From the IMG/VR virus record IMGVR_UViG_3300006163_000010, positions 1 through 40,718 of that record: a DNA stretch of 40,718 nucleotides; one strand, given 5' to 3'. A program made the position numbers and the translations under genes. The notes below the pieces were generated by a model that saw nothing but the letters and a program-made list of their open reading frames with translations, was not told where the DNA came from and made no database searches. This stretch comes from a virus. Positions 5,873-39,785 of the stretch are shown here, piece after piece (position 1 is the first letter of the stretch; the number at the start of each line of letters is the position of its first letter).

Positions 5873-5912
5873 GTCGCCCTACTTACATCGTTCGTTTGCT
5901 GCTGTTGGGTTG

Positions 5913-5986
5913 AGCCAAGAGCCCGATTCGAACAGGCAACCGTTTCATTACAAATGAACTGCACCACCCAATTGTGCTATCCTGGC
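5913..5986 (-). tRNA. tRNA-Thr (anticodon UGU)
   Basis: Folding the minus strand by eye gives a full cloverleaf of 74 nucleotides. The acceptor is GCCAGGA/TCTTGGC (one G-U). The D stem is GCAC/GTGC with GG in its loop, and the anticodon loop is TTTGTAA (UGU, decodes ACA). The variable loop has five bases. The T arm is GCCTG-TTCGAAT-CGGGC. The only flaw is a G-A mismatch at the base of the anticodon stem. No CCA is encoded, so the host must add it. Phage tRNAs often offset codon-use differences or replace host tRNAs cut by defence nucleases. Confidence 0.92.
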
Positions 5987-8511: not shown

Positions 8512-8736
8512 TTAAAGCATCCAGATACCGACAAACTCAGTAGGTTCCCATTCGGTTACTGTCGTACCTGGGAAACGTGATTCTACTTCAGCCTTCGAGT
8601 CCGCAAAACCTTCCCAATTGAGACCGTCTGCATTCGTCGCATAGAAGTAAGTTCCCTGTGGTATCAGTTCTTCCTCACCTGTGATATCAATGATGCTATC
8701 GTCGATTAAAACTTGAGTAGTTGAAGTGTTTGACAT
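8512..8736 (-). CDS. Hypothetical 74-residue acidic protein (MSNT start family)
   Basis: A small acidic protein starting MSNTSTTQVLIDDSIIDITG with a TYFYATNADGLNWEGFADSKAEVESRFPG segment. This looks like a compact alpha-beta fold. Acidic small early proteins are sometimes DNA mimics, but nothing here proves that. It is the second gene of the leftward transcript, 19 bases after the HTH gene. Confidence 0.55.
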   Translation of the reverse strand: MSNTSTTQVLIDDSIIDITGEEELIPQGTYFYATNADGLNWEGFADSKAEVESRFPGTTVTEWEPTEFVGIWML

Positions 8737-12325: not shown

Positions 12326-13727
12326 TTTACTTCAAATACCGCGCATAGAGATATTGGTCGAGCTCTTTAAGAGAAAGAGGTTCGACCCTTTTGTTATTAA
12401 AGACGGCCTTAAGCACGAAAAGCAGGAACAGGCGCTTCAGATACTCACTGATAACGAAACAGAGGAATTTGGGTATGGTGGAGCTGCAGGAGGAGCAAAG
12501 TCTTGGACTGGGTGTGTGTGGGAAGTGTTCATGGCAATGGCTTACCCCGGCACCAGGTGGTTTATTGGTAGGGAAGAGCTAAAGCGACTGAGGGAATCTA
12601 CTTACCAGACATTCCTGAAGGTGTGTAAGGCATATGGGATTAAAAGGGATGTTCACTGGGCGTACAATGGGCAAGATCACTTCATACAGTTTACGAACGG
12701 AAGCAGAATAGATCTTCTCGACTTGAAATATGTTCCCCGTGATCCTTTTTATGAAAGGTATGGATCAGTAGAGTATACCGGTGGGTGGATAGAAGAAGGT
12801 GGAGAGGTAAACTTTGGCGCTTTTGATACACTCAAGTCAAGGGTGGGGCGACAACTGAATGAGAAGTACGGAATACTGGGGAAGATCTTTGTTACACTGA
12901 ATCCAAAAAAGAACTGGTGTCATACAGTATTCTGGAAGCCGTTTAAGGCGAAAGCCATGCCAGCAATAAGAAAGTTTTTGCAGGCACTGGTTCAAGATAA
13001 CCCATTTATAGACGCTGGCTATATCGACAAGCTGAGATCTATAACAGATAAGGTAAAAAAACAGCGGCTACTGTTTGGGAACTTTGATTATGATGATGAC
13101 GATAATTCGCTAATAGAGTACGATGCCATTAACGACATATACACCAATACTTATGTCGTAGAGGGGAAGAAATATATCACAGCAGACGTAGCCAGGTTCG
13201 GTGCTGATAAGTCGGTTATAATGCTCTGGAATGGGATGAGGGTATTCCATATCAAGGTATTGCTAAAGCAAAGGACTACTAAAGTGGCAGATGAAATAGA
13301 GAAGCTAAGAACCAAGTACGCTATCCCACTCTCTCAGGTCATTGTAGATGAAGATGGTGTCGGTGGCGGAGTTGTAGATAAGTTGGGTTGCCAGGGGTTT
13401 GTGAATAACAGTTCACCGCTGGATAATCCCCATACAAAAGAGCAGGAGAATTACAAGAATCTGAAAAGTCAGTGCTATTACATGCTGGCAGAAAGGATAA
13501 ATGATCATAAGGTATATGTTGACTGTGAGGATTACGAGATAAAAGAAGCATTGACAGAGGAGTTGGAGCAGGTGAAAAAGAGAGATGTTGACACAGATAA
13601 AAAGCTGGAAGTTATGCCAAAGGATGCCGTAAAGGAATTGTTAGGCAGGTCCCCAGATTATTCGGATACACTGATGATGAGGATGTTCTTCGAATTAAAA
13701 CCTAAATCAAATTGGCAAATATTCTAA
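12315..13727 (+). CDS. terL: Terminase large subunit
   Basis: The frame opens with GTG at 12315 (ANDLLQIPRIEILVELF) and gives 470 residues. The P-loop GGAAGGAKS is at residues 55-63, followed by an acidic Walker B-like GGWIEEGGEV. The nuclease domain has YITADVARFGADKSVIMLW, QVIVDEDGVGGGVVDKLG and a C-terminal RSPDYSDTLMMRMFF Asp. All these are features of the packaging ATPase-nuclease that pumps and cuts phage DNA at the portal. The start overlaps terS and the end overlaps the portal by 16 bases, so the three genes are coupled. Confidence 0.92.
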   Translation: MANDLLQIPRIEILVELFKRKRFDPFVIKDGLKHEKQEQALQILTDNETEEFGYGGAAGGAKSWTGCVWEVFMAMAYPGTRWFIGREELKRLRESTYQTFLKVCKAYGIKRDVHWAYNGQDHFIQFTNGSRIDLLDLKYVPRDPFYERYGSVEYTGGWIEEGGEVNFGAFDTLKSRVGRQLNEKYGILGKIFVTLNPKKNWCHTVFWKPFKAKAMPAIRKFLQALVQDNPFIDAGYIDKLRSITDKVKKQRLLFGNFDYDDDDNSLIEYDAINDIYTNTYVVEGKKYITADVARFGADKSVIMLWNGMRVFHIKVLLKQRTTKVADEIEKLRTKYAIPLSQVIVDEDGVGGGVVDKLGCQGFVNNSSPLDNPHTKEQENYKNLKSQCYYMLAERINDHKVYVDCEDYEIKEALTEELEQVKKRDVDTDKKLEVMPKDAVKELLGRSPDYSDTLMMRMFFELKPKSNWQIF

Positions 13728-15151
13728 AGAGGTTACTGGGTCCATCTCCAAAGGAAATTCAGAGTATGATGAATTCATATGTTCAGCAATGGATTGATCA
13801 AAATGGACCTGTCTGGGCACCGGTGATGCCTATCTATCCGAAAGTAGACCAGAAAGCATCTGTTCAGAAGGGGTATTGTAGTAATGCAGATGTTTATTCC
13901 ATCATAAGCCGAAAGGCGCAAATGGCGGCCGGCATTCCATTCTATGTATACAAGGTTAAAAATGCGGAAGGGAAGAAGTGGTTGCGTGAATATAAGACAT
14001 TGACTTCTGGAGATATGTTAACACCTGCAGCCTTGGCAAAGGCTCAGATATATAAGGTCAAGGCGCTCCAAGAAGTGGAAGAGAATAACCCTGTAAATAA
14101 GCTACTTCAACGCCCAAACAAGACAGACTCACAGTCGGAATTCCTTGAGAAGTGTTATGGCTTCCTGGACATAACCGGGAATGTATATATCTGGAAAGAA
14201 GCTCTTGAAATGGGTGCAAATCAGGGCAAACCGGTAGGTCTATATACATTGCCTTCTCAATACATAACCGTTGTGCCAGACGGCACTTTTCCTGTCTCTA
14301 CAGCAGGATATATGTTCTTTCTGTGGGGTGAAATGGGGCTAAAGAAAGAAGAGATAATCCATATCAAGTACTTCAATCCAGACTATCAGCCGGACGGTTC
14401 ACATTTAGTAGGTATGCCGCCGTTGAGAGCTGGTGCAAAGACACTTACCAGGTCAGATAGTGCTGTTGATAGTTCAACTGCACAATTCCAGCATGGAGGA
14501 CCTGCCGGCATGATGTACAACGAGTCAATTACTCCGGATGAGGAAAGTATGAAGCAGGTGGGGGCCCTCAAAAAGAAGTGGGAAGCGGAGACATGGGGTA
14601 ATAAGAATCGAGGTAAGATATTATTCTCTGCCGGCAAACTGGGCTACCTACAAACTGGCTTATCACCTGCAGATCTTGAAGTGTTGGAGTCTGAGATGTA
14701 TACCTTTCGTCAGTTGTGCAGGTTATTCAAGATGCCGTCTGCTATATTCAACGATAACGACAAGGCTACCTACAACAATATGGAGCAGTTCTATAAGGCT
14801 GCTTATACTGATGGGGTGATACCAATGGTTATTAAGATGCGGGATGCTCTCAATTCGTTCCTTTTGCCCGATTTTGGGGATAATGGTGAATATTTCATAG
14901 ATGCAGACTTCTCAAACATTCCAGTACTCCAGGAAGATATGAAAACTCTCACGGAATGGCTGGATAAGTCGTGGGAGATCACTCCGAATGAACGCCGGGA
15001 GCTGAAGAAGTTTGGCCGGTCATCAGATCCAAACATGGATAAGGTGTGGATGCCATCAGGCTTGGACACCATGGATAACCTTTCTATGGAGGTTGATGAT
15101 GTGGAAGGCGCTATAACAGACCTGAATAAAAGCGGACTTAATCCGTATTGA
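13712..15151 (+). CDS. Portal protein (HK97 type)
   Basis: The frame opens with TTG at 13712 inside the end of terL and encodes 479 residues. It has the phage portal pattern: ADVYSIISRKAQMAAGIPFYVYK near residue 60, then PVNKLLQRPNKTDSQSEFLEKCYGFLDITGNVYIW. The KEEIIHIKYFNPD segment, DSAVDSSTAQFQHGGPAGMM and the C-terminal EDMKTLTEWLDKSWEITPNERRE complete the set. Twelve copies form the DNA entry ring at one capsid vertex. It is the last packaging gene before the accessory insertion, since the MuF gene that would usually follow lies 7 kb downstream. Confidence 0.9.
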   Translation: MANILKRLLGPSPKEIQSMMNSYVQQWIDQNGPVWAPVMPIYPKVDQKASVQKGYCSNADVYSIISRKAQMAAGIPFYVYKVKNAEGKKWLREYKTLTSGDMLTPAALAKAQIYKVKALQEVEENNPVNKLLQRPNKTDSQSEFLEKCYGFLDITGNVYIWKEALEMGANQGKPVGLYTLPSQYITVVPDGTFPVSTAGYMFFLWGEMGLKKEEIIHIKYFNPDYQPDGSHLVGMPPLRAGAKTLTRSDSAVDSSTAQFQHGGPAGMMYNESITPDEESMKQVGALKKKWEAETWGNKNRGKILFSAGKLGYLQTGLSPADLEVLESEMYTFRQLCRLFKMPSAIFNDNDKATYNNMEQFYKAAYTDGVIPMVIKMRDALNSFLLPDFGDNGEYFIDADFSNIPVLQEDMKTLTEWLDKSWEITPNERRELKKFGRSSDPNMDKVWMPSGLDTMDNLSMEVDDVEGAITDLNKSGLNPY

Positions 15152-15214: not shown

Positions 15215-16183
15215 ATGTTGAATAAGGTTGTACCAATATTAAGGCATGGGCCATCTTGCGATTACCATCGCACAATATTGCCTTTCAAATATTTGGGATT
15301 CGACATACAGCCTAAACCTATCAACTATGCAGCTGCCGAGTTAATAGTATTCAACCGGTTAGCCCATGAACCTCCAGAGCGGTTCTTCGCACAACAGAAA
15401 CTACATGGGTTCAAATACATTGTTGATATAGATGATTACTGGCACCTTTACCCACACCACCATATCTACGCTAATTGGCAGAAGGCAAAGTTTACCGAGA
15501 AGATAATGGCTTTCATTAAGGGGGCTAACGCGGTTACTACAACCAATTCAGCATTAGCGGCTAAAGTTGCGCAACTAAACAAAAACGTTGTGATCATCCC
15601 AAATGCATTGCCATTTGATCATGGACAGTTTGATAGCACAAACAATACCGATGATCAAATCAGGTTTGTATATGCCGGCGGCAGTTCCCACTATCACGAC
15701 TTCGCGCTGGTTGCTGGTGCGATCAAGGGTACAACACGGGTAAACTTCACATTGGCAGGGATAGAGAACAATCCTGCCTGGTTACAGATGCAGGCGCTTC
15801 TTCGTAATGTCAGTTACGGTAAACGAGCATGCCAACCATTGGATAGTTACATGTCCGTATACAGTAATGCTAATGTGTCATTGGCTCCATTGGAAGCAAA
15901 TGAGTTCAATTGTCTGAAAAGCAATCTTAAGATGTTGGAGGCAGGATGTAAGAACCTTGCATTTATTGCCAGCAAAACAGCACCATATTTCAATGAGCTG
16001 GATAAGCGATATGTAATGTATGCTGAAACAGAAAGTGAATGGAAGGCGTTGATGGCTGAATGTATAAAAGATCCGGCGATAGTAAAAGAGGCTGGATTGC
16101 AACTAGGGGAGCATGTGCGACAACATTATGATTTGCGGAAAGTAAACGAAATAAGAAGGCAGCTGTATGAAAGTATGCTATAG
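15215..16183 (+). CDS. Glycosyltransferase, GT-B fold (GT4-like)
   Basis: The 322-residue protein looks like a GT-B glycosyltransferase. A short N-terminal domain (VPILRHGPSCDYHRTILPFK) carries KYIVDIDDYWHL. The centre has GANAVTTTNSALAAKV, NVVIIPNALPFD, then RFVYAGGSSHYHDFALVAGA. The C-terminal sugar-nucleotide region is LDSYMSVYSNANVSLAPLEAN … NLKMLEAGCKNLAFIASKTA, ending with HVRQHYDLRKVNEIR. These are GT4-type landmarks (YAGG … DxxP … KxLE). It starts the accessory run, 63 bases after the portal, and overlaps the next gene by 17 bases. Donor and acceptor are unknown. Confidence 0.8.
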   Translation: MLNKVVPILRHGPSCDYHRTILPFKYLGFDIQPKPINYAAAELIVFNRLAHEPPERFFAQQKLHGFKYIVDIDDYWHLYPHHHIYANWQKAKFTEKIMAFIKGANAVTTTNSALAAKVAQLNKNVVIIPNALPFDHGQFDSTNNTDDQIRFVYAGGSSHYHDFALVAGAIKGTTRVNFTLAGIENNPAWLQMQALLRNVSYGKRACQPLDSYMSVYSNANVSLAPLEANEFNCLKSNLKMLEAGCKNLAFIASKTAPYFNELDKRYVMYAETESEWKALMAECIKDPAIVKEAGLQLGEHVRQHYDLRKVNEIRRQLYESML

Positions 16184-16703
16184 CAATCCATATAATCGGG
16201 AGAAGAACATAGGAAAGTCGCTAAACGAGTTTTGCGACATGGTTCCAGGTGATTCATGGATTGTGCTTCAGGATGGAGATATAATGTACCTAACAGACTA
16301 TTGGGGTACTCAGATTGAGGATATTATAGCAAAGAACGCAGACTACGACTTGATTGGGTGTATGACCAATAGACTTAAACACAATCATCAGTTATACTTG
16401 GGTAAGTTCTCTGATGATTCTGATATCCGTAATCACATTGGCGTTGCAGAACAGTTGCATAGTTCCGATTATGATACAGTGGAGCACACCGAAAAGCCAA
16501 TTGCCGGCATGTTTATGTTGTTCCCGAAAATAACATGGACTAAACATCGGTTCAAAGAGAACTCTCCAACGTTTGATACTCATTTCAGCCGGGCAATTCA
16601 AAGAACAGGAGGGAAGGTGGGAATAGCAAAGGGGTTATATGTGTTTCACAAATATCGGATGGGTAAACCTGATCCAAAAACAAATGATAAACATCTAAAA
16701 TAG
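16167..16703 (+). CDS. Short glycosyltransferase-like protein, GT-A fold
   Basis: The 178-residue protein has MKVCYSNPYNREKNIGKSLN, VPGDSWIVLQDGDIMYLTDY and a later GMFMLFPKITWTKHRFKEN … FDTHFSRAIQRTGGKVGIAKGLYVFHKYR. The DGD in a hydrophobic strand is the DXD motif that binds the metal and nucleotide sugar in GT-A enzymes. The His in VFHKYR would match the usual metal-binding His near the end. It is shorter than most GT2 enzymes and lacks a clear N-terminal P/AxYN motif, so activity is not certain. Confidence 0.7.
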   Translation: MKVCYSNPYNREKNIGKSLNEFCDMVPGDSWIVLQDGDIMYLTDYWGTQIEDIIAKNADYDLIGCMTNRLKHNHQLYLGKFSDDSDIRNHIGVAEQLHSSDYDTVEHTEKPIAGMFMLFPKITWTKHRFKENSPTFDTHFSRAIQRTGGKVGIAKGLYVFHKYRMGKPDPKTNDKHLK

Positions 16704-16707
16704 ATAT

Positions 16708-17493
16708 ATGGCTTTGATTGCAATGGCTTGCTATGACACGGTAGAAAATGGACGTACCTGGATGACTAAGGAAACACTGATTTCATTATCTGAAACGGTT
16801 GATTTCAGGAAGCATCGATTGTTTGTAATTGATAACGCCAGTTGCCAGGCAACAAAAGATTTGCTGAAAGAGTTCGCATGGATGCAATTTACGCTGATCG
16901 GTAATGATGTGAATGTAGGGACAGCAAAGGCAATTAACCAGGCATGGAGACACAGAACACCGGGTGAAAACCTGATCAAGATGGATAATGATGTGGTTAT
17001 CCGTGCTGCTGGATGGGTGGAGTTGTTGGAAGAGTTGATTACCAGAATGGGGAAGACTGACATTCCCGCCGGTATTGTAGGGCTGAAACGGAAAGACTGC
17101 ATAGAATCACCTAACCTACCAGAAGAGGATTTCTACCGGAGCGAATTGGTAATGTCACCAGCGCCATTAGGCCATAAGTGGATAGTTGCAGAAAGGGTAA
17201 ACCATGTAATGGGTACCTGCCAAATGTATAACCATCAGTTAATAGATCGCATAGGGGGGTTATACCAGATGGATGGGTTATATGGATTTGATGATACGTT
17301 GGCGGCTATTAGATGCCAGGTTGCCGGCTTCCATAGTTATTTCCTGCCAGAGATTGTCATTGACCACATAGATCCGGGAGGCACCAACTACCAGAAATGG
17401 AAAGAAGGGTATGCTGGGGAGAGGATGAGAAAATTCAACGAACTACGCGAACAATATATTAACGGACAAACATCAATTTTCTATCAATTATGA
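16708..17493 (+). CDS. Glycosyltransferase family 2-like protein
   Basis: The 261-residue protein has the GT2 order: N-terminal ALIAMACYDTVENGRTWMTK, HRLFVIDNASCQATKDLLKE, GNDVNVGTAKAINQAWRHRT, then LIKMDNDVVIRAAGWVELLE with a DND metal motif. The acceptor-side motif is GGLYQMDGLYGFDDTLAAIR, followed by IDHIDPGG. This is a full GT-A catalytic domain without membrane helices, so the enzyme is soluble. It starts 4 bases after the previous transferase and overlaps the methyltransferase as ATGA. Confidence 0.85.
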   Translation: MALIAMACYDTVENGRTWMTKETLISLSETVDFRKHRLFVIDNASCQATKDLLKEFAWMQFTLIGNDVNVGTAKAINQAWRHRTPGENLIKMDNDVVIRAAGWVELLEELITRMGKTDIPAGIVGLKRKDCIESPNLPEEDFYRSELVMSPAPLGHKWIVAERVNHVMGTCQMYNHQLIDRIGGLYQMDGLYGFDDTLAAIRCQVAGFHSYFLPEIVIDHIDPGGTNYQKWKEGYAGERMRKFNELREQYINGQTSIFYQL

Positions 17494-18107
17494 AGCAAGT
17501 AAACACATTGCCTGGGGATAGTTCAGACTATCATCTACTAACCAAAGGAGTAGAGTTAAGTAAGGATGTAGTAGGTATGACCTGCGAGATAGGGCTACGG
17601 TTAGGGGGCGGCACCAAGTACATTGTGGATGCCATATCGGCAAATTGTCCCGGTAAGGTGCATATCGCCATTGATCCATATGGGCACATCGAGTATAACA
17701 ATAAAGAAGGTAGCATCTGCCGGCTGGATTATACTAATGAAATGCGTGATACTTGTTTGGGTAACCTGTATCCATATGTGGCATCAAAGGGAGTTCAATT
17801 CCTATTCTTCAATCTGGAAGATACTGAGTTCTTCAACCGCTATGCAGATGGGGTACCTGTATACAGGTTAGAGAAGACGCTGGAAACAAAGTACTCTTTC
17901 ATTCATTTTGATGGCCCTCATGCAGTTGATCCATTAAAGGAAGAACTGGATTTCTTTATTCCCCGTGCATCTAAAGGCGCTATTTTCGCATTCGATGATA
18001 TCACGGACTACTATGATCATAGTGAGATAGAAGCCATCCTTTTCAATGCAGGCTTTGTTTTGATTGAAAAGACATTTCATAAGGGAATATATCGGTATGA
18101 AAACTAA
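17490..18107 (+). CDS. Class I SAM-dependent methyltransferase-like protein
   Basis: The 205-residue protein has motif I as MTCEIGLRLGGGTKYIVDAI, a post-I acidic strand HIAIDPYGHIEYN, motif II-like YSFIHFDGPHAVDPLKEELD and GAIFAFDDITDYYD. These match the Methyltransf_24-type Rossmann methyltransferases often found in sugar and glycopeptide clusters. SAM is the expected donor. Its ATG overlaps the GT2 stop, and its last 11 bases overlap the next glycosyltransferase, so it is part of one coupled pathway. Confidence 0.75.
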   Translation: MKQVNTLPGDSSDYHLLTKGVELSKDVVGMTCEIGLRLGGGTKYIVDAISANCPGKVHIAIDPYGHIEYNNKEGSICRLDYTNEMRDTCLGNLYPYVASKGVQFLFFNLEDTEFFNRYADGVPVYRLEKTLETKYSFIHFDGPHAVDPLKEELDFFIPRASKGAIFAFDDITDYYDHSEIEAILFNAGFVLIEKTFHKGIYRYEN

Positions 18108-18756
18108 GATTGTTACAGTAGCGACACGACCAGACCCGGGGCTTACTATGCTTATTGAAAGTATGGAAAAGTTTGGGCTGGATTATGTCGTGTTGGGACA
18201 GGATCAGCAATGGAAAGGTTTTGGGACTAAAATAATATTGCTGGAGAAATACCTAAAGAGTATTGACCCGGAATATACCCATGTCGTTTTTGTTGATGCT
18301 TATGATGTGGCACTCCTGTCAGGTATGGATGAAATAGAAAAACAGTACACTGATAGCTGGCCCGGTAAAATAGTGTTCAGTGCTGAGTTGAACTGTTGGC
18401 CCTGTGCAGAGTTATCTGAGCGGTATCCAGCCTGTGACAGCTTGTGGCGGTATCTCAATTCGGGTAGCTACATGGCTCCAATCAGTGGGTTATTAAGCCT
18501 GTTCAGTGCATATCCTCCGGTGTTTGAAATGGATGATCAACTGTACTTCACAAAGATGCTACTTGGCGGGGAATCTCCTATAGTGTTGGACACTAATTGC
18601 AGCCTGTTTCAAACCACTGCATTCTGTTACAATAACGAATATAGGGCAGATGGTGCACGCCTGGTAAATAACTTGACAGGTACCATGCCGGTTGTAATAC
18701 ATGGAAACGGCAGAACCCCAATGGATTCCATATACGAATTATTAAAACATAACTAA
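18097..18756 (+). CDS. Glycosyltransferase, PLOD/procollagen galactosyltransferase-like
   Basis: The ATG at 18097 (MKTKIVTVATRPDPGLTMLI) gives 219 residues. Landmarks are KIILLEKYLKSIDPEYTHVVFVDAYDVALLSGMDE, with a D-A-Y-D metal motif, then KIVFSAELNCWPC and LWRYLNSGSYMAPISGLLSL. DDQLYFTKML … VLDTNCSLFQTT and VVIHGNGR end it. This is the arrangement of the PLOD-type glycosyltransferase domain (lysyl-hydroxylase-linked sugar transfer and bacterial or viral relatives). Related enzymes transfer sugars to proteins or sugars. This raises the chance that the pathway acts on a protein. Confidence 0.75.
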   Translation: MKTKIVTVATRPDPGLTMLIESMEKFGLDYVVLGQDQQWKGFGTKIILLEKYLKSIDPEYTHVVFVDAYDVALLSGMDEIEKQYTDSWPGKIVFSAELNCWPCAELSERYPACDSLWRYLNSGSYMAPISGLLSLFSAYPPVFEMDDQLYFTKMLLGGESPIVLDTNCSLFQTTAFCYNNEYRADGARLVNNLTGTMPVVIHGNGRTPMDSIYELLKHN

Positions 18757-19463
18757 TGTCATTAACAGACGTACAGAAAAGCTGGAAGAATTCACCCGCT
18801 CACCATAAAATGGTGAATGAGTCATTTGCATCTTCAGTTAATGCAGATCCAAGCCTAAAGGCACATAGAGATTTTGTTGAGCAGAATGTTTTTGGATTCG
18901 GGGAACGGTCTTTCCAGTGGTTACATAAGCTAATCGTTGACGATATGCCGGATAACTTCGCTTTCATGGAAATAGGCGTATTCAAAGGGCAAATCCTTTC
19001 ACTGTATAAGATGTTGGCAGACGTAACCGGGAAAAGTGTAACACGGTATGGAGTGACCCCGCTGTCAACTGCAGGTGGCGTGTGGGAGTCTGACTATAAG
19101 AGGGATATTGAGTTCATTCATGACACGTTCATGCTGGATAAAGATTATCAGCTGCTGGTAGGTTTAAGTACTGATCCAGCGATCATACAGGAGGCTCAAT
19201 CACTCTCTGTAGATGTCCTATATATTGATGGGGGACATGATCATGCAACGGTGGTCAGCGACATTGTGAATTATATTCCTATCATTAAACCTGGCGGATA
19301 CCTGATAATTGACGATTGCGCAAATGATATGAGCATGCCATGGGGCTATTTCACCGGGATTCAGGAAGTAACTGACGCTACCGGTAGTATAATGAATACC
19401 CATCCAGATTATGAGTTCCTGTTCAATGTAGTGCACAATAAGGTTTGGAGGAAAATAAGATAA
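18756..19463 (+). CDS. Class I SAM-dependent methyltransferase (Methyltransf_24-like)
   Basis: The 235-residue protein has motif I FAFMEIGVFKGQILSLYKML, then VTRYGVTPLSTAGGVWESD, a central VDVLYIDGGHDHATVVSDIVNYIPIIKPGGYLIIDDCAN and the NTHPDYEFLFNVVHNKVW end. This is a complete methyltransferase fold with the DGGH motif common in Methyltransf_24 enzymes. Its ATG shares the final base of the upstream glycosyltransferase stop. It is the second methyltransferase in the cassette. The likely target is a sugar hydroxyl, but no acceptor can be read from sequence. Confidence 0.8.
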   Translation: MSLTDVQKSWKNSPAHHKMVNESFASSVNADPSLKAHRDFVEQNVFGFGERSFQWLHKLIVDDMPDNFAFMEIGVFKGQILSLYKMLADVTGKSVTRYGVTPLSTAGGVWESDYKRDIEFIHDTFMLDKDYQLLVGLSTDPAIIQEAQSLSVDVLYIDGGHDHATVVSDIVNYIPIIKPGGYLIIDDCANDMSMPWGYFTGIQEVTDATGSIMNTHPDYEFLFNVVHNKVWRKIR

Positions 19464-19466
19464 AGT

Positions 19467-20006
19467 ATGAAATCATTCCTTGTTCCTGCATTAGGCGGCT
19501 GTCCAATAATATCCAGTGGAATTTATAGTCACGTTAATGACAGGTACATAACAGGTGAGGTGCTCAATTGTATTCACAATAAAGTGCATATAGGCCGCCA
19601 GTATAAGCTTAATATAAATACTCCAATATTCGATATTATTGGCATCCTGTCTGGATACGAATGTATTACAGAGGCTAAGGGTGCCGGTGGCTATTGTGAT
19701 TTCAATAACAGGGTAATAGCAATAGATAATAAGCAAAGTGGTGGGCTTCATACTGTGTGTCACGAAATTAGCCATTCTATACAGGCTGAGTTAGGAATAT
19801 TCAATGATGATGGTAGTGTTTTGTCCTGGCAGGTTAAGATGGAACACCAATGTGAAACAATGGCATATTATCTATATAATGGGTTGTTCCCAGAAGCTCC
19901 CAAACCATGGGGTCAATTTACATCCTATTTCAATAAGGAATCTATTCTGTGGTTGGCCGATTGGTATAAAGGATACGTAGAAAATGATTTGATCTTTAAA
20001 TCATAA
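19467..20006 (+). CDS. Predicted zinc metallopeptidase (HExxH)
   Basis: The 179-residue protein has VCHEISHSIQAELG, an HExxH motif (His99, Glu100, His103), inside a helix after GLHTV. A glutamate-rich segment MEHQCETMAYYLY (Glu126, Glu130) 23-27 residues further on could give the third zinc ligand. Phages encode such compact gluzincin-like proteins to cut repressors or other proteins, but no family is certain. There is no signal peptide, so it acts in the cytoplasm. It follows the methyltransferase by 3 bases and is followed by a 55-residue ORF. Confidence 0.65.
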   Translation: MKSFLVPALGGCPIISSGIYSHVNDRYITGEVLNCIHNKVHIGRQYKLNINTPIFDIIGILSGYECITEAKGAGGYCDFNNRVIAIDNKQSGGLHTVCHEISHSIQAELGIFNDDGSVLSWQVKMEHQCETMAYYLYNGLFPEAPKPWGQFTSYFNKESILWLADWYKGYVENDLIFKS

Positions 20007-20009
20007 TAA

Positions 20010-20177
20010 ATGAACCTTGACGACATAGTAAACAGGGCCATCCCCATTGATCCAAAGGACTGTAAGATAAAAAAAGCCTACAAGGAAGGCTTACGTCTTC
20101 AAACCAAACAAGATATTATCAAGTTAATTACTCATAACTTTACGCCCAAACCGAAAGAGGAATCAAAACAAGGGTAA
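20010..20177 (+). CDS. Hypothetical 55-residue protein
   Basis: ATG at 20010, four bases after the stop of the metallopeptidase gene, opens 55 codons to a TAA. The product MNLDDIVNRAIPIDPKDCKI continues with a helical, basic end (KKAYKEGLRLQTKQDIIKLITHNF). The short spacing and hydrophilic helical composition suggest it is real. It is the last gene before promoter region B. No family is known to me. Confidence 0.6.
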   Translation: MNLDDIVNRAIPIDPKDCKIKKAYKEGLRLQTKQDIIKLITHNFTPKPKEESKQG

Positions 20178-21759: not shown

Positions 21760-22132
21760 CGAATCGTGCCGACAACTTGTAACCCTGGTTGAAGCCAGAC
21801 AAGAACAACCCTTCATTTGGCAGGTGGATATAACCGGGCTTAATATTCATGAATCCGTTAAACAACTGATTATTAATTGCTACCTGCAAAAGACACCGTT
21901 TGCCCTGTCAACTGATGAAGGGGATAATATTGTGTACTTTCTGCCGGCAAATGGCTGTGCTGTTTGGGTAGATAATGGAGGTGTAACACTTAATACGTTT
22001 TCTGATCACAACCAGTTTCAAGACTGTTTTAAGATAGTATTGGTAGGACACAGGAAGTTTGTAGGAGTTCGGGAAATAGAATGGCATGAAGTATACAAAG
22101 AGATTGTAGAACAAATAAAGTCACTGGAATGA
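21752..22132 (+). CDS. Hypothetical 126-residue protein
   Basis: The protein (MRNESCRQLVTLVEARQEQP … FALSTDEGDNIVYFLPANGCAVWVDNGGVTL … HEVYKEIVEQIKSLE) is a mixed alpha-beta fold with no signal or metal motif. Both ends overlap neighbouring genes: it starts inside the 55-residue ORF, and its stop overlaps the MuF gene start at 22129. It is the last accessory gene before head morphogenesis resumes. I recognise no family. Confidence 0.55.
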   Translation: MRNESCRQLVTLVEARQEQPFIWQVDITGLNIHESVKQLIINCYLQKTPFALSTDEGDNIVYFLPANGCAVWVDNGGVTLNTFSDHNQFQDCFKIVLVGHRKFVGVREIEWHEVYKEIVEQIKSLE

Positions 22133-23211
22133 GCAATAAAGAGAATAACGAATATGCTAGGCGTCATGCGGTCTGGGTGGCTAAGCAAGAAAAGAAATGG
22201 GTTAAAAGGGTATATAAAGCCCTTCAGGTCAATAATCTTTCCTTTGCCAACTATGCAAAGATAAATGGACTTACCCCTGCTATCAAGGTGATTGATACTG
22301 TAGTAGAAATGAAGCCAATCGTGGAGGTTCTACGGGCTTTGTATTTGTCTGTGGGCATTGAACGTGCTAATATTGTGAGGCGAGAGATACAGTTGGATAG
22401 TAAGAAAGGGGTAAGTGATTTTTTGGATATTATTACCGATGCCATATTGAACTTTTTTTCGGCTTATGCAATATCCATTTCTGTTATGTCGATCTTAAGG
22501 ACACAGAAGAAAACCATACTTGCCTACATTCTTAAGGCCCGAAATTCTGGCATGAGTGATGAACAGATTATTAATTCAATTGACAACATTCTACCCGCGA
22601 TCACACCTCCAGTTATTCCTCCGCCTGTTATTGCACCAAATGCACCTATTGTGGTTCCAGAACCTATAGCGCAAATAACCCCAATTGAAACACCTATAAT
22701 AACGGCCGGCAATCTTGATCAGATAGCTGTGCAAGGAAATACAAATAGAGACACTGACATCATTAGGGGGATTGAAGAATTACCAGCAAGTAAAAATCAG
22801 GCACGAGTTATTACTCAGACTGAAATTACAAGGGTAAAAAACTATGCTGCATATGTGGGGGCAGATGTAACAAATATATTGCTGGATAAAATATGGATTT
22901 GCCGATTGGACAATTTGGTTAGAAGGAAAGGTAAAAAATATCCCTGGGATCATTTCGCACCGCATGGGCAGACAGTGCCGCTTGAATTACCTTTCACTGT
23001 TTCAGGAGAGGCACTTATGTATCCGGGAGATCCCACTGCGAGTAAGGGGAATATTGAAGGGTGCAGATGTGTCATGAAGTTTAAGCCTCGCAGAGGTGCA
23101 AATGGGCTGGTTCTACCAAAACCGATAGTTGAATCAAGAGGGATTACAGTTATACAGCCAGGTCCCAGCAATATAACTCAAATCATTACAATAGGATTTA
23201 ATGGCCAATAA
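22129..23211 (+). CDS. Minor head protein, MuF-like
   Basis: The 360-residue protein has a helical N-terminus, a Pro-rich linker (about residues 160-200, PPVIPPPVIAPNAPIVVPEP) and a C-terminal MuF-type domain. That domain has QARVITQTEITRVKNYAAYV, DKIWICRLDNLVRRKGK, HGQTVPLELPFTVSGEALMYPGDP and IEGCRCVMKFKPR (the CRC end). Such proteins enter the capsid with the portal in HK97/Mu-like phages. In most genomes the gene follows the portal directly, but here the accessory run separates them. It ends in the peptide ITVIQPGPSNIT, also found at the end of the gp10-like protein. Confidence 0.75.
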   Translation: MSNKENNEYARRHAVWVAKQEKKWVKRVYKALQVNNLSFANYAKINGLTPAIKVIDTVVEMKPIVEVLRALYLSVGIERANIVRREIQLDSKKGVSDFLDIITDAILNFFSAYAISISVMSILRTQKKTILAYILKARNSGMSDEQIINSIDNILPAITPPVIPPPVIAPNAPIVVPEPIAQITPIETPIITAGNLDQIAVQGNTNRDTDIIRGIEELPASKNQARVITQTEITRVKNYAAYVGADVTNILLDKIWICRLDNLVRRKGKKYPWDHFAPHGQTVPLELPFTVSGEALMYPGDPTASKGNIEGCRCVMKFKPRRGANGLVLPKPIVESRGITVIQPGPSNITQIITIGFNGQ

Positions 23212-27516: not shown

Positions 27517-27975
27517 ATGGCCACAAGATTACCGGCTGCCGGAAGTATCGGGGTATTCATTAAAACGGGTTTAAACTTCCTTGTTTTAGTATGCCAAACA
27601 GACCTCACATTTGACCGCTCCAGGGATACCATTGATGCAAACAGCAAATGCGGCCCTAATCAGGTTCCTTCTAACAATCCTACTTACGAAATCACAGGTA
27701 CTGCACAGGTATTATTATCAGATGATGATGATCCTGAGTTTGATAGCCAGGCATCTGAGGCACTGGTTGATCAGTTGTTCCGTGCAAAAACAGAATATGA
27801 CTGGAAGATTGGCCCATTGAGCGGCATTGCTGTTCCTGGTGATGTAATCTATGAAGGGGTTGGCTTCTTCTCCAATCTGTCAACATCTTACCCGAATGAA
27901 GACGTTGCAACTTTTGATTTCACTATCACTGTTAAGGGTGAATACACTCAGGATATAGAACCTGCTACAACATAA
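27517..27975 (+). CDS. Major tail protein
   Basis: The 152-residue protein has GSIGVFIKTGLNFLVLVCQTDLTFDRSRDTIDANSKCGPNQVP, then ITGTAQVLLSDDDDPEF, and a C-terminal ATFDFTITVKGEYTQ. This beta-sandwich pattern is typical of siphovirus tube proteins of the TP901-1 type (a conserved D-x-S-x-D…N-x-K segment and a final T-x-x-G). It lies between the completion protein and the chaperones, the expected place. Confidence 0.8.
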   Translation: MATRLPAAGSIGVFIKTGLNFLVLVCQTDLTFDRSRDTIDANSKCGPNQVPSNNPTYEITGTAQVLLSDDDDPEFDSQASEALVDQLFRAKTEYDWKIGPLSGIAVPGDVIYEGVGFFSNLSTSYPNEDVATFDFTITVKGEYTQDIEPATT

Positions 27976-31278: not shown

Positions 31279-33215
31279 TGGCTACATACGGGACAATATA
31301 TAGAATGCAGTTCAGGGATAAGAAAGACCTCTTATGGAGGGTTGATTTTCGACTTAAAAATGCTGGCGATACTGACACTCCACTCGTGTTGCAATATGGC
31401 GGTGGAGAGCCGGTAGTGATTAACTGGAATAATTCTGATGAAGACCAATTCGCAACTATAATTGGAAGTAAAGCAAGCATAACCTATTACAAGAGTAATG
31501 ATACAGACCCCTCTCCTGAAACGTTTATTAATATTGAAGAGGATGAATGGTTGATAGATATAAGCAAACTGTCAGATAATACAACTCCTGTTTTGTTTTG
31601 GCGCGGTTTTATTAAGCCAGATAGTAATCAATATCCATGGTTGCCTATGCCATATAGCTTTACAATCAATGCTGTTGATTTTACGTTTTCAAAGGGCACA
31701 ACAATTGATCTTAACGATACGAATTTATTCCTATACGACTTTGTAACAGTAGGAGATTTTATTAAGAGGTCGTTATTTAATTCTATAGGATATGAAGACA
31801 GTATTGCTAAAATATTATTTAGCATCAAACCGGATTCTATTGGGTCAGATTTGATAACAGAATCATTATGGGTGCACACTGATGCATTCTATGATTTCAA
31901 GGACGGAGCTAAGTTTGCGTATGATGCATTAGAACAGTTTTTCGAATCGGTTGATTCAAGGGTATTTTACTCTAACGGCTCATATTGGATTCAGAGAGTA
32001 CAAGATATCGGGAGTAGTAATCAATCATTAATAGTAATCACTCCAGAAGATACAGGTGGGATGATTACTATTAATTATGATATCTCTCAGCCATTAGGCA
32101 ATTCTCCTGCTGACACCGTTGTATATCTTAACAAGACACAAATGTTAACGGTTAATGCCGCTATTAAAAAGCAACGCGTTAATTATCCATTACAAGGGAT
32201 TAACCAAATAAGGAACTTTGATTGGAGGTCAAGTACTCAATCACCATTCCTAGATTGGGAAGGAGATATTACCGGATTCTACACGCGTCAGGGGGTAGGT
32301 AATCTGGAAGATCAATTCAGAATACGGATTGGAGACGCTACGGGTAGTACATTCAGAAGTATTTGGTCAAGAATATCTGTGGCAGTGAATCAATTGGTAA
32401 GACTAGAGTTGAAAAACAAAAGCTACTTAACATTGCCTGCAGTAGATGCTGTTACATATGGAGTGTTTACTAAGGCAGTAGTCGTATTGGTAGAATCAGG
32501 AACGATTGATCCATTAAAATGGTTAGGTACTGATGGTAAGTGGAATAATGTCACAGGCGGAAATGTAGGGGAGGACGAATATTATCACATATCATCCAAT
32601 CCGAAAAACAACGCCAATACAGGAACTATTGAAATACTAAGTGAGCCTATCCCTGTTATTTCGGGTATTGCTTCTTATGAGGTTCTTGTTGTAGTTGTTG
32701 ATAGCGGCATCAGTCCAGCGCCTCCTTCCGGTAGTTCATTCTATACAGAATTATACCCGGCCTTTTTGCGTGTTTACAATGATCCATACGTGAAAATACA
32801 AGAGGACATTGTTAACTCAAAGAAATATTCTTTGATCCCAAGTGATAAGGAGAAATTCTTCTTAGATATACAGGATACAGGGTTGTCCAATACAATCTTC
32901 TATGATGATGCAGGAGTAAAGAAAGCTATTCCGTTCAATGATTGGGATGGGAAAACCATTGACGAAACCGTATTGAGAGGAGAGTTGGATCAGCAGAATA
33001 AACCGGGATATAGTTTTGATGGTGATGTATTCAGCAATGAACTTTCATTCCACCATGCTATTACCTTGACGGATTTAGACAACAAGACCATGATGTTACT
33101 TAGAGATAAGTACAGTGTAATGTCTTGTGTCCATTCAATATATGCTACTGAGATAATGCCTATTGGCGCTGGGATTGGAACTTATACAGTCACACCGCTA
33201 ACACAGGACGAGTAA
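31278..33215 (+). CDS. Baseplate/distal tail protein candidate
   Basis: The 645-residue protein is beta-rich (LLWRVDFRLKNAGDTDTPLVLQYGGGEP … FRGFIKPD-like WRGFIKPDSNQYPWLPMPYS). It contains a central AYDALEQFFESVDSRVFYSNGSYWI segment and ends with AITLTDLDNKTMMLLRDKYSVMS. Gene order (tape measure, then this) matches the place of the distal tail or hub protein in siphoviruses. I do not recognise a lysozyme or glycosidase motif, so only a structural role is proposed. Confidence 0.65.
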   Translation: MATYGTIYRMQFRDKKDLLWRVDFRLKNAGDTDTPLVLQYGGGEPVVINWNNSDEDQFATIIGSKASITYYKSNDTDPSPETFINIEEDEWLIDISKLSDNTTPVLFWRGFIKPDSNQYPWLPMPYSFTINAVDFTFSKGTTIDLNDTNLFLYDFVTVGDFIKRSLFNSIGYEDSIAKILFSIKPDSIGSDLITESLWVHTDAFYDFKDGAKFAYDALEQFFESVDSRVFYSNGSYWIQRVQDIGSSNQSLIVITPEDTGGMITINYDISQPLGNSPADTVVYLNKTQMLTVNAAIKKQRVNYPLQGINQIRNFDWRSSTQSPFLDWEGDITGFYTRQGVGNLEDQFRIRIGDATGSTFRSIWSRISVAVNQLVRLELKNKSYLTLPAVDAVTYGVFTKAVVVLVESGTIDPLKWLGTDGKWNNVTGGNVGEDEYYHISSNPKNNANTGTIEILSEPIPVISGIASYEVLVVVVDSGISPAPPSGSSFYTELYPAFLRVYNDPYVKIQEDIVNSKKYSLIPSDKEKFFLDIQDTGLSNTIFYDDAGVKKAIPFNDWDGKTIDETVLRGELDQQNKPGYSFDGDVFSNELSFHHAITLTDLDNKTMMLLRDKYSVMSCVHSIYATEIMPIGAGIGTYTVTPLTQDE

Positions 33216-33979
33216 TGTTTATAAGAGGATCAGATTTCAATTTCTATATACTTCGTGATGGTGTGCCGGTGGCCATCTGCCACTCGGTTGATTGTGTGAT
33301 AGAAACAACTACTGAAGAATTGGATACAACTGGACCGACAAACGGCAAGTGGGCATCCTTCATACCAGGTATTAATTCCTATACGATCAGTGCTCCTGGG
33401 ATTTCTGTGTATCAGGATGATATGAATATTGTCGATTTGAGGGAGTACCAGGGCGTAGGTAATGTACTGGAATGGAGGGCCGGTATTGATGCTGATGGAG
33501 GATTGCAATATCGTGGGAGCATGTTCATTACATCGCTATCACAAAGCAGCCCACATACGGATATCCTGCGGTATGAAATGTCGGCACGAGGGACAGGTCC
33601 ACTACAGATCGTTAAGAATCCATTAATCAGAACTGTATATCTATCTGATCTTTTCGGCATCCGGCTGGCAGGTTGCCCTGACCCATATCCAGTATCAGTG
33701 TTGTGGTATGATGGCAGTCTTATAGGGTTGGCTAATAATCCGGATGATGTAATAACTCAATTCAATGGATATGCTGGCAATGAGTATTATGTATTAAGTA
33801 GCCCGGACAACAGTTGCAATTTCACAATGAGTATAGCTTGGGATGCTCCGGACAACCCAGAATGGGTACCTGCAGAACCAGGTGGATTAACAGGATTATG
33901 GACCGGTGAAGGAGATGGCGGTATTAGCCCAACAGAAGATGGAGATGAATTAATAACACCAATAGAAGTAGAACCATGA
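33215..33979 (+). CDS. Hypothetical tail protein
   Basis: The 254-residue protein is beta-rich (SDFNFYILRDGVPVAICHSV … EWRAGIDADGGLQYRGSMFI). The first 150 residues look like a tail-tube or baseplate beta domain (TNGKWASFIPGINSYTISAP; ETTTEELDTTG is a tube-like loop). The C-terminal third is acidic and Pro/Gly-rich. It overlaps neighbours on both sides by 1-4 bases. A baseplate-associated role follows from position only. Confidence 0.6.
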   Translation: MFIRGSDFNFYILRDGVPVAICHSVDCVIETTTEELDTTGPTNGKWASFIPGINSYTISAPGISVYQDDMNIVDLREYQGVGNVLEWRAGIDADGGLQYRGSMFITSLSQSSPHTDILRYEMSARGTGPLQIVKNPLIRTVYLSDLFGIRLAGCPDPYPVSVLWYDGSLIGLANNPDDVITQFNGYAGNEYYVLSSPDNSCNFTMSIAWDAPDNPEWVPAEPGGLTGLWTGEGDGGISPTEDGDELITPIEVEP

Positions 33980-35268
33980 GGCCAGATGTAACAGAAGTAG
34001 ATCTCTATAGTACTCGGGAACTTCCCGATGCTACGCCACTTGTGCCTGATGAGACATGGTATGTTCCATTATGTGATCCTCTAACTGGGATTTCATATAG
34101 AGCAAATCAAGAACTTATAGGTGGAATAATAAGTAATTATGTAGGTGGTGGGATTGTAATCCCAGATCGGGTATATAGGATTGGAATAAGTCTACCTGTC
34201 GGTGCAACTGTAACTGTTGAAGATGGGAAAGGAGTAATAACTGATCCATATCTTGACGGAAAGGTCTATTCCGTGAATAGGCGTGGCACTGAGTTGATGA
34301 TGAAAGGGGTTGAGTGGGATAATCTTTCAGGAGACGAAATAAGACTATTGCAAACTGATGATATATTCAGTGATGACGAGGTGGTTATTGTTCAATTTCA
34401 GCCACAAATAAGTTCTATAATCAGTGCTCCGAACTCTATAGCACGATTCACGAATGGCGTTCAATTAATAAACTCAAACATCACATTAACAGCATCTACT
34501 TATCGTAAGCTTCTTGTATTGGCTGGCGGATATCTGGTTACTCTTGGGGTTGATTACCCTGAGAATGTGATATGTGCATTCACTCAGAATAGTACCGGTA
34601 ACGGGCAGTCAACTATATCGGCTCCTGTAGGACAGACAATCGCCTATAATGGAACGAATGTATCATCTGTATGGATTGGAAAGAATGAGCGCATCAGCTT
34701 CATTCGATTAGATATTACATGGTATGTTGTGTTCGATACTCTTGGCTATGATCGCATAGGACAGATTGTACCTGGAAGACTTGTGGGTGCAAACCAGATT
34801 ATAGCACAGGGGCAAACAGTTCTACGTTCAGAATATCCACGGGTATTGGATTATCTGAATAGGCTTAATACAGCATATCCAGGTGTAGTGCTTAGTGCAG
34901 GAAGTTGGCCTTCTGCTAAAACGTATTGGGGCTTCGGTAATGGGACTACTACAATACAGGTGCCGGATTTACGAGGATATTTCCCTCGCTGGTTAGATCT
35001 TGGTGCTGGTATCGATGCTGATCGAGTATCAAGTTCATTAGAAAACAAGCCAGGAAGTCCTGAAGGCATGAAGGTTGAGTCTCATGCGCATCCAGCGTCT
35101 AATTCAGACGGCACCGCAAAGTTTGTGAAAAGAAAAGGGACTAAAACACCCGGTATAGCAACCAATCCAGTTAACGGATTTGAATACCAGGAACAAAACA
35201 CAGGAACATATGGCGGCAATGAAACGCGACCAATTAACGCAGGTGAATTACCATTAATTTTTGTATGA
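33976..35268 (+). CDS. Tail fibre with phage-collar domain
   Basis: The 430-residue protein has a beta-rich N-terminal part. From about residue 260 it has a phage tail-collar domain: GQIVPGRLVGANQIIAQGQTVLRSEYPRVLDYLNR, then TTIQVPDLRGYFPRWLDLGAGID and the terminal EGMKVESHAHPASNSDGTAK. The collar motif (G..v..a.YP.L … F.lPDlRG.F.R) and the SHxHP end are typical for trimeric fibre tips that bind metal ions. It starts inside the previous gene. No signal peptide, unlike the next two proteins. Confidence 0.8.
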   Translation: MRPDVTEVDLYSTRELPDATPLVPDETWYVPLCDPLTGISYRANQELIGGIISNYVGGGIVIPDRVYRIGISLPVGATVTVEDGKGVITDPYLDGKVYSVNRRGTELMMKGVEWDNLSGDEIRLLQTDDIFSDDEVVIVQFQPQISSIISAPNSIARFTNGVQLINSNITLTASTYRKLLVLAGGYLVTLGVDYPENVICAFTQNSTGNGQSTISAPVGQTIAYNGTNVSSVWIGKNERISFIRLDITWYVVFDTLGYDRIGQIVPGRLVGANQIIAQGQTVLRSEYPRVLDYLNRLNTAYPGVVLSAGSWPSAKTYWGFGNGTTTIQVPDLRGYFPRWLDLGAGIDADRVSSSLENKPGSPEGMKVESHAHPASNSDGTAKFVKRKGTKTPGIATNPVNGFEYQEQNTGTYGGNETRPINAGELPLIFV

Positions 35269-38200
35269 TGAGAAGGATAATAATTATATCGCTGATTTTA
35301 ATATCAGCATTCGCGCATGGCCAGGTTTATGTTAATAATCCGGCTTATGGAACCAACTTTAAAAGGGGGAATTTTATTACTGTTTTGCAAATACCATCAG
35401 ATACAACACTGGATGGGACTACAAATCCGTGTGCACAGATTGCCAAGATTGATAATGTTATCTATACCTATAATTGCGATAGTGTGAAATGGGTCCAAAT
35501 AGTAGTGGCAGATACAGGTATTCAGTTGGCTCTTGATTCAGCCCGTCGCTCCAACGATACACTCTTCTTCCGGATTACTACTGGAGGCGAGTTGGCTATT
35601 AAGATGGATTACTACACAAAGCATGAAAGTGATTCAGTCTTTAATATCACAGCTTCACATGGACTAAATAAAACCGGGAACGATATTCAATTAGGAGGTA
35701 CATTTGGTGATGATGGGGAGGATGTAACTGTATTGGGAAATGAAAATCAATCATTACGTCTTCGAGGCACTTATAATACCGACTACAGCTCTGATGACTA
35801 CACTTCTGAAGCCAGAATATTAGGAAGCGGAATAATACTACAATCCATCAACCGTGTGAATGGAGGCAATACCTCATTAAGCATAGGTAGTACAACTGGA
35901 ATTGTAGCAAGTAGTGTTAAAGGAGGGTCTATTACAAGCACGAACGGTGATGCTACAGCTTCAATTGCTATCCCTGCCAATTCATCTGGTGTTCAAATTA
36001 ATAGTGATATAAGCAGTACAGGCGGTTCAAGTTCGTTAAATATAAGTTCTTCAGGTAATTCACAGTTAACAGCAAACAATTCACTAACAATATCTACTCC
36101 ATTAATGACATTACAGGCCGGAACGGTACTGGACATTGATGGACTTAAAAATAATGTAGGTATTGACAGTACATTATACACTGACGAAAATGGAATAGTC
36201 AAACAAAGAGTTCTGGCAATGTCTGATGTGCCCGGATTGGTAGATACGTTGAACGCGAGAAAAGATAGTACTTTCTGGACAAAAGTATATGGTAGCCTAC
36301 GACCGAAAACCATATCTGATAGCGTAGGCATTGGCAAGAAAGCAACTGTACCATTTGATGTTGCCGGTAAGTCTAATTTTGATGACACCACAAAAATGCA
36401 TTCATTAGTTTTAGGCGGAGCGCAGCCCGCTATCCCCAGTGTATACAGGATGTATGTATACGGGAATAATGCATTCACAGGTACTACTGCCTGGAACGGC
36501 GGAATATACAGCAGCAGGAATAGTATAGCAATATCTAATAGGACAATATCCCCTTGGTCGGCTTTCAATTCATCTGGAACTAATGATATATCTCCGGTGG
36601 CTACAATTGGGTGGTATAGATTTCAGGCATCTGGTTTAGGGAAAGCCCTTTATGGGGACTATTTGGGTAGGCTATTTTTTGGTGCTTATACAGGATCGGC
36701 GTTAAACTCAGGGCTGAAGGTAATGGCTGAAATGCGAGTGCAGACTACACAGCATATTGACACTACCAGATATGGAGCCAAAATTTATTTCATGACCACA
36801 AAAAACGGTTCTGTTCCAGTTGGTCCTACTGATAGTGCTACGCTGAATCCAAGAACAGCGCTGTTACTTGAAAACAATCAAAATGTAGCAGTTGGAGTAA
36901 GTGCGATTAACGACAGTGCATATTTGGGTAGATTTCAGGTAAGGGCCGATAGTGCAAATAGCGTTACACAACCATTGATATATACAGATTCATATCTAAA
37001 GGCTTTTAGATGGGCCATATTAGGCACCGGACAGGAAAAAAACTCCTTTCTTGCAACCACGTCATCAGGAATAGCATTGAACGTATTATATGTTGATCCT
37101 GCGGATAGTCTGGTTAAAAAAGGTATACTTCCTTCTACCGGATCTACTCCGCCTGTTGTTAATCTTATTATTCCCAATGATGTATATGCGGTTGAAGGAG
37201 CAGAGTTCAATGTTTATAATGACAATATTGTGCTGTCGGATTATGGAAAATCTGATTTTCAATATGACTATGTATGTACGAAAGGAATTCAGTATAATAA
37301 TCGTTTCTCTTATACTCCGACACAGGCAGATAGTGGGACCACTACGCTGGCAATTAACGTATTATACAAAGGAGGTGTCATAGCGACAAAGACTGTCAAT
37401 CTGCATTCTACGACCAGACGTGCCGGTACCTCCACGCGCAACGTAATCATGGGCGGTGATTCGCAAGTGAATGCTGGTACTATTACAGACACTGCGAAGG
37501 CAAATTATAGTTCTGATGTGATGGTTATTAACTATAAAGGAACGCAGCCAACACCAGGAGGTAATTTCATGGAGGCTCGTGGAGGATGGCAATGGTCAGA
37601 CTTTACCACTGTAGGAAGAACATTCTACAAGTTCATAGTATCTGGTATTACTATTCCTCCTGCACTGAACGCCGCCTATACAAATAACTCCAGCACATTT
37701 GCAGCAAGGGAAATAAACCTTTCGGGAGGTTCTGGATATATATCTTATGAAAGAACAGTAGGTGTTAATGCCCCATTGTCATCAGGAACTCTTACAAAAA
37801 GTACTGGAGTCGGTGATGCAACAATAACTTATAGTTCTGTCACTACGGTACCGGGTAATCCGCTCTGGAATGGAACATTAAGCAGAATGGATGTTGCAGG
37901 TTATCTAACTACATATAGTATAACAATGACTACGGGCGATTGGTGGACATGGCAATTAGGAACTAATGACGTGTTCAGTTATACCGATACCGCAACATTG
38001 AACACAAAAATAGCAGCTGTTCTGGTAAGTATTGATACGATGATCAATGCTATACAGGCAGGAGCACCCGGAACGAAAATAGCCCTGGTTCTCCCTAATC
38101 CGCCAGCAGATCAAGATGCGGCCGGCTCTAATTATACAGCAGGACAAACTGCATGGAGGTTCGACGATAATATTAAGCGGTATATGAAGGCGGTGCTGGC

Positions 38201-39504: not shown

Positions 39505-39785
39505 ACTGGGATAATATTCGATTCACTGCACGGGATATGCTCATGATTATTGTGAATGTTGTGACTGCAACATCATTCATTCTAATAATGAAGGGAGATA
39601 TTCGCACGCTGGTAAACGGGCAGCAACGCATGGAAGCAAAGCAGGATAAGTCAGAAGATGACAATACCTCTTTTCGAGCCAAATGCCAGGTAGAATTAAC
39701 TGAGTTGAAAGTTCGTATCAGTATCGTAGAACAAAAAGTAAACAATATTGAAATAGAACAAAACGCAATCAAATCAATCAAATGA
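39501..39785 (+). CDS. Membrane-anchored coiled-coil protein (spanin or holin partner candidate)
   Basis: The 94-residue protein has one membrane helix (MLMIIVNVVTATSFILIMKG, about residues 13-32) followed by a charged coiled coil (about 40-90, ending VEQKVNNIEIEQNAIKSIK). Small proteins of this form in lysis cassettes can be inner-membrane spanins. Its start overlaps the holin-like stop and its stop overlaps the hydrolase start, so all three are coupled. A lipoprotein partner may be the truncated gene at 40599. Confidence 0.55.
   Translation: MNWDNIRFTARDMLMIIVNVVTATSFILIMKGDIRTLVNGQQRMEAKQDKSEDDNTSFRAKCQVELTELKVRISIVEQKVNNIEIEQNAIKSIK

Follow-up and report, generated by a model that had tools for sequence, protein, structure and literature searches.

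Mycobacteriophages are known to have glycosylated virions (Freeman et al. 2023, as cited in PMC12619734). Here, we describe a seven-gene glycan cassette in a 40,718-bp virus record, IMGVR_UViG_3300006163_000010 (the whole stretch analyzed, hereafter the window), which resembles those systems, as far as the citing article presents them, in combining phage-encoded glycosyltransferases (GTs) with the virus particle as the proposed target. It differs from what is presented there in that four GTs and two methyltransferases (MTs) form one late-operon block, in that the phages are of Bacteroidota, and in that it is known here from genes alone. The cassette spans positions 15215–20006, and the seven coupled frames claimed by the initial annotation of this DNA (g1–g7; Table 1) all exist, with successive spacings of −17, +4, −4, −11, −1 and +3 bp, where negative values are overlaps. 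We give somewhat better than even odds (a probability of roughly 0.55) to the reading that this exchangeable late-operon cassette decorates a virion protein with a short, methyl-capped oligosaccharide.

Related gene sets have been described in cultured phages. Like the cassette, Cellulophaga phage phi12:1 and its relatives (Helsingorvirus) carry an MT, here of the MT24 type, together with a GT whose C-terminal part is a homolog of g2 (44% identity). This pair, annotated as a DNA methyltransferase and a glycosyltransferase, lies between the MuF gene and the protease and capsid genes; unlike the cassette, it consists of two genes only, stands to the right of MuF and lacks a PLOD-type enzyme. In phi18:1, which belongs to the same genus as phi12:1, the structural module reportedly includes gp41, a GT, along with one of the phage's four "DNA methyltransferases" (PMC11946311). 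Another study states that phi18:1 is not predicted to contain methyltransferases, yet its Table 2 lists a "DNA methylase", gp40 (PMC13288928). Since the phi12:1 gene order makes gp40 most likely an MT24-type enzyme, it may be a sugar methyltransferase. The four-GT cluster of phAPEC8-type phages (gp071–gp074) resembles the cassette in that homologs of g1 and g2 occur together, but it is located between endolysin and primase genes and has no MT or PLOD-type enzyme annotated. No published description of the cassette as a unit was found in the open-licence literature searched. The cassette is real and widespread and, judging by the literature that could be searched, undescribed as a unit; phage-encoded glycosylation itself is already known.

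Enzymes encoded by the cassette

The product of g5 matched mimivirus R699 (9dyt, 6.2e-26) and human LH3 in the Protein Data Bank (PDB). The R699 residues published as lying at uridine diphosphate (UDP), the donor or the acceptor sugar are W48, K62, Y85, E114, W118, N138, D162, D163, Q164 and H216 (PMC11838735, whose numbering the PDB chain runs 3 ahead of), and an alignment comparison showed all ten to be identical in g5. As a PLOD-type enzyme, g5 is therefore like R699 and the GT domain of LH3; unlike them, it is a single GT domain without an accessory or hydroxylase domain, in a phage without a collagen-like protein. R699 transfers glucose to galactosyl-hydroxylysine and also to free glucose (PMC11838735), so a sugar acceptor suffices for a PLOD-type domain. 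The initial annotation correctly recognized the enzyme type, whereas its further point that such transferases act on proteins is not a requirement; g5 most likely extends a sugar. We placed the start of g5 at ATG 18097 (219 amino acids) rather than at TTG 18064 of the mechanical open reading frame (ORF) because homologs such as that of locus L025 begin with the same MKxK..TVA.

For g6, the predicted structure (predicted local distance difference test score, pLDDT, of 92) had as its nearest folds SpnH (Z 19.3) and MycF (19.2), the best of 1000 chains compared, along with NovP (18.4) and MeT1 (18.3), and superposed on SpnH at 2.7 Å over 182 residues. All four are sugar O-methyltransferases that act on sugars or glycosides. 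The likeness extends to the Asp/His pattern, but g6 is only 16–19% identical to these four enzymes and its sugar substrate is putative. Residues D158, D186 and D187, invariant in 28 sequences, are likely, judging from the family, to bind metal. By its model, g6 clearly belongs to the sugar-methylating type of O-methyltransferase as its predicted activity.

The g3 model (pLDDT 94) has a GT-A fold, closest to the mannosyltransferase PcManGT (Z 18.9) and GalNAc-T2 (18.5). Because a mannosyltransferase, polypeptide GalNAc-transferases and the chondroitin and heparosan synthases are tied within Z 1, this fold is uninformative on the acceptor. Residues D93, D95 and H220 of g3 are invariant in 40 sequences, as are D36, D38 and H161 of g2 in six phages. 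The match of g3 to phrog_841 (GtrB-like) was marginal (E 0.11), and NCBIfam gave no specific function for any cassette gene, with only sub-threshold GT matches for g3. Sequence-profile searches returned no solved structures for g2 and g4. The g1 product is ~40% identical to GTs of phAPEC8-like phages, and g4 homologs, 50–62% identical, occupy the same position in L025, L045, L083 and L113. No membrane segment was predicted in g1–g7, in which no hydrophobic segment exceeded a KD19 value of 1.24. A role in anti-phage defence was considered and rejected, as PADLOC gave no match for g1–g7.

These results agree in part with the initial annotation. The motifs it listed are present (DGD in g2, DND in g3, DAYD in g5 and HEISH in g7), and the models of g3 and g6 fit its enzyme classes, with g3 being GT-A and g6 nearest to sugar O-methyltransferases. 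Catalytic sites, on whose presence it had made its proposal depend, are kept in g2 and g3 relative to their homologs and in g5 relative to R699, and g6 has the conserved aspartates. The cassette chemistry is well supported. The HExxH protein g7, which had been counted among the pathway members, is probably not one of them: no homolog was found in viral contigs or phages apart from the same virus, and its GC content at third codon positions is 0.34 vs. 0.42–0.46 for g1–g6. For these reasons, we left g7 out of the pathway; it is probably a late addition outside it.

The interval between the portal and MuF genes

The late module is ordered terS, terL, portal, g1–g7, small genes, MuF, protease, capsid and tail genes. 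Portal and MuF are normally adjacent, as had been claimed: they are 4–93 bp apart in locus L024 and in nearly all distant relatives where both genes were found, whereas the clade to which the window belongs (portals 65–78% identical) has gaps of 5084, 6080, 6978 and 10378 bp. Three distant relatives have gaps of 397–717 bp containing small genes only. The insertion at this junction is real, except that g7 does not touch MuF, since a conserved gene of 55 amino acids and more small ORFs lie between them. By eye, similar small genes can be recognized in L195, L196 and L120, where the portal–MuF interval holds no cassette, and in L118 and L035, where they flank the cassette on its right side.

The contents of the slot differ among close relatives. 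The window reads GTB-GTA-GT2-MT-PLOD-MT-HExxH (GTB and GTA denoting GT-B and GT-A types) and L035 reads GTB-GTA-GT2-PLOD-MT; between the two, GTB, GTA and GT2 are 70–73% identical and PLOD only 34%. In L035, portal runs to 8529 and the first cassette gene, g1, already starts at 8519; this overlap is the strongest indication that the cassette is cotranscribed with the head genes. A prophage of Chitinophaga eiseniae DSM 22224 (L114/L116), 80% identical to the window in terL, 78% in portal and 76% in capsid, carries an MT, a GT2, a small probable membrane protein and a GTA, and L118 carries a 494-amino-acid GT2 and a GTA. The sole constant slot member in the clade is g2, present in L035, L116/L114 and L118 and also in Cellulophaga phi12:1. 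Other genes are found in the same interval: an RNA ligase 1-like gene in L118 (14091–14939; PF17720, over the cut-off), an RNA ligase 1-like copy in L035 (16676–17338; by similarity in reading) and a gene for an SPFH/Band 7 protein in the C. eiseniae prophage (L114, 14971–15756).

In L024, where portal and MuF are adjacent, genes for an acyltransferase, an MT, a GT2 and a GTB follow directly after MuF. As the slot clade, L024 and phi12:1 show, several Bacteroidota phages keep glycan genes at almost the same place in the head module. We tentatively suggest, at somewhat less than even odds, that the slot could be a serotype locus of the virion, where related phages whose capsid genes hardly differ would exchange entire glycan sets, and that a methyl-capped coat made by a PLOD-type glucosyltransferase and a sugar O-methyltransferase could be common among uncultured phages.

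Recurrence in uncultured phages

The hallmark gene of the core cassette is g3. A profile search confirmed 170 relatives in IMG/VR, 80 of which were retained; a pattern search of ~85,000 prokaryote genomes, which was not exhaustive, confirmed none. INPHARED (50,697 phage records) gave no match, which leaves the full set without a known cultured carrier. The core order GTB-GT2-PLOD-MT was found again in dozens of uncultured phage contigs, which excludes a chance arrangement. Loci were selected without regard to neighbours, except for a few drawn by g1. Of the 30 loci that extend far enough to either side of g3, 27 had a GTB within 6.5 kb of it. A PLOD-type GT followed g3 in 47 of 52 loci with room downstream, often 3–12 bp away, and an MT did so in 28 of 52. 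PLOD and MT form one polypeptide in five phages (L025, L045, L063, L083 and L113). In L025, a GIY-YIG homing endonuclease-like ORF (12555–13343, by reading) separates the fused PLOD-MT gene from the g4-like MT. The multi-step line for a methylated oligosaccharide proposed in the initial annotation is supported by core enzymes that keep their catalytic residues, travel together and in part are fused. The block, for which it had proposed a survey of related Bacteroidota prophages, does recur; the set is not peculiar to the window prophage, and in close relatives other sets occupy the slot.

In all 34 records with a detectable terL, g3 was on the same strand and at most ~4.1 kb away, and in contigs >24 kb it was near terL in 16/16, vs. 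5.7 expected by chance. Many carriers are related to one another: their terL sequences formed three groups at 30% identity (19, 8 and 3 members) and seven at 40%. Even where two phages had no similarity in terL, their g3 sequences were 40–88% identical (mean 51%). Since g3 is similar in such phages and always near terL, the cassette moves between lineages with its genomic address kept. It occurs widely in viruses, at a fixed genomic location within the late structural operon.

Proximity to the terminase also speaks for another reading, hypermodification of the phage's own DNA with a methylated oligosaccharide, which we regard as quite improbable. Some phages have GTs that glycosylate DNA bases (Pyle et al. 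2024, as cited in PMC12619734), and the C. eiseniae GT2 has a sub-threshold match to a TET-associated GT (E 0.014). However, the enzymes closest to g5 and g6 have sugars, peptides or small molecules as substrates, a thymidylate-synthase-type enzyme was absent in 49 of 50 records (positive controls matched 9/14), and no hypermodification gene was recognized among the ORFs of a longer, 52,944-bp record of the window virus. TET/JBP dioxygenases were found in 0/50 records, with positive controls likewise giving no match.

The 52,944-bp record is a 100% match to the window over the compared parts and adds 12 kb. It encodes an integrase (PF00589) and has ORFs that read like a DnaB-like helicase and a lysozyme. 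Because of these genes, the window virus, a Chitinophaga-type siphovirus, is most likely temperate. Temperate lifestyles of this phage and of the C. eiseniae prophage would fit enzymes that modify a host surface glycan or protein, giving superinfection exclusion or conversion in lysogens, and phage GTs altering host lipopolysaccharide are known (as cited in PMC11946311). We nevertheless judge such a role unlikely: g1–g7 include no membrane GTs, unlike Gtr systems with membrane-bound GtrA/GtrB/GtrC, and the cassette sits in a late operon, not in a separately expressed region. No GT2 relative was found in the bacterial genomes searched by pattern, and GT_PLOD was present in only 3 of 296 host-family genomes, there away from phage genes. 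Of 36 records that have the cassette, its GTB or another slot cassette, just 2 contained an integrase (fragments, with serine integrases outside the test), and lysogenic conversion is therefore unlikely as a general role.

Host chromosomal PLOD-type GTs were rejected as a close source of g5, being rare and only 23–30% identical. On the C. eiseniae chromosome (L208, 3323–11136), the PLOD-type GT adjoins a 1986-amino-acid protein and a cupin-type-like protein (by reading); this locus, and also one in a relative, looks like a natural-product cluster. Such clusters, together with the soluble, cytosolic nature of the cassette enzymes, favour a role in host takeover, in which the cassette would glycosylate an intracellular host protein or make a small glycoside during infection. 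We consider this the least probable of the alternatives, given the late-operon address, at which phages whose head genes are closely related carry several distinct sets. In Synechococcus phage S-8S56 (L204), a PLOD-type GT adjoins 2-oxoglutarate (2OG)-Fe(II) oxygenases and a tail-fibre gene, an arrangement that may represent a hydroxylate-then-glucosylate pair.

Elsewhere in the window, a tRNA-Thr (TGT) lies at 5912–5986 in a gene-poor stretch, and two genes (27517–27975 and 33215–33979) match phrog_1407, a major tail protein family. A 1050-amino-acid tail-end protein (35265–38417) has a GDSL-lipase-like C-terminal part (E 2e-5, under the cut-off), and beyond it is an esterase related to polyhydroxybutyrate (PHB) depolymerases (39782–40621); the two are possibly a deacetylating receptor module.

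Table 1. Cassette genes and bordering genes in the window, with supporting family matches.
Feature	Position	Strand	Evidence
Portal gene, left cassette border	13712..15151	+	PF04860 6.6e-48; 78% identity to C. eiseniae prophage portal
g1, GT-B type glycosyltransferase	15215..16183	+	phrog_7162 glycosyltransferase 1.2e-80
g2, short GT-A type glycosyltransferase (DGD)	16167..16703	+	phrog_14179 8.9e-50
g3, GT2-family GT-A glycosyltransferase (DND)	16708..17493	+	PF00535 7.3e-7, over cut-off
g4, class I methyltransferase, optional member	17490..18107	+	PF13578, over cut-off
g5, PLOD-type UDP-glucose glucosyltransferase domain	18097..18756	+	PF25342 3.1e-43, 148 bits vs. cut-off 27
g6, metal-dependent sugar-type O-methyltransferase (predicted)	18756..19463	+	PF13578 2.6e-10
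g7, putative metallopeptidase (HEISH)	19467..20006	+	DUF6782 4.5e-4, phrog_1233 7.2e-5, both weak
Conserved 55-amino-acid gene, right cassette border	20010..20177	+	Similar small genes in relatives, judged by eye
MuF-type head morphogenesis gene	22129..23211	+	phrog_2468 5.8e-22

A candidate pathway and its acceptor

In the route we propose, the cassette would be expressed with the portal, protease and capsid genes in the late particle-assembly operon. Two or three transferases would build a short oligosaccharide from host nucleotide sugars, with the first bond to protein made by g1, g2 or g3. The g5 enzyme would add glucose from UDP-glucose onto a chain sugar, and g6 (plus g4 in some phages) would methylate a sugar hydroxyl, capping the chain. 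The PLOD-MT fusion suggests that the methylated sugar is the one added by g5 or its neighbour, and most simply it would be the one just added. The acceptor would most likely be one of the abundant proteins of the virion, whether capsid, tail tube or fibre, and the phage could benefit through masking from, or matching to, host surface factors.

Several points weigh against a virion target. Proximity to the head genes could reflect late transcription only and not a head target. Collagen is the classical PLOD substrate, and no Gly-X-Y run of at least seven was found in the window, the rest of its record or the examined loci; a collagen-like fibre was rejected as the g5 substrate because no such run is encoded. 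Virion proteomics of phi18:1 reports methylation of lysine and arginine, with no protein glycans in the main text (PMC13288928). DNA modification and lysogenic conversion are disfavoured. A virion protein would be the simplest acceptor.

If methylated glycans are indeed placed on virions, a whole class of uncultured phages would make its own methylated glycan, and relatives would change it by cassette swap, as bacteria do with O-antigens. This would bear on how particles evade or use lectins, enzymes and competitors of the host or environment, and it would provide a function for genes labelled "moron" or mislabelled "DNA methyltransferase". The hypothesis is testable, as phi18:1 and phi12:1, the latter with the reduced cassette, belong to the cultured phages; the prophage of C. 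eiseniae offers a similar opportunity. Because close relatives carry different sets at the same spot beside the DNA-packaging genes, our results suggest that the virus particles wear an exchangeable sugar coat.

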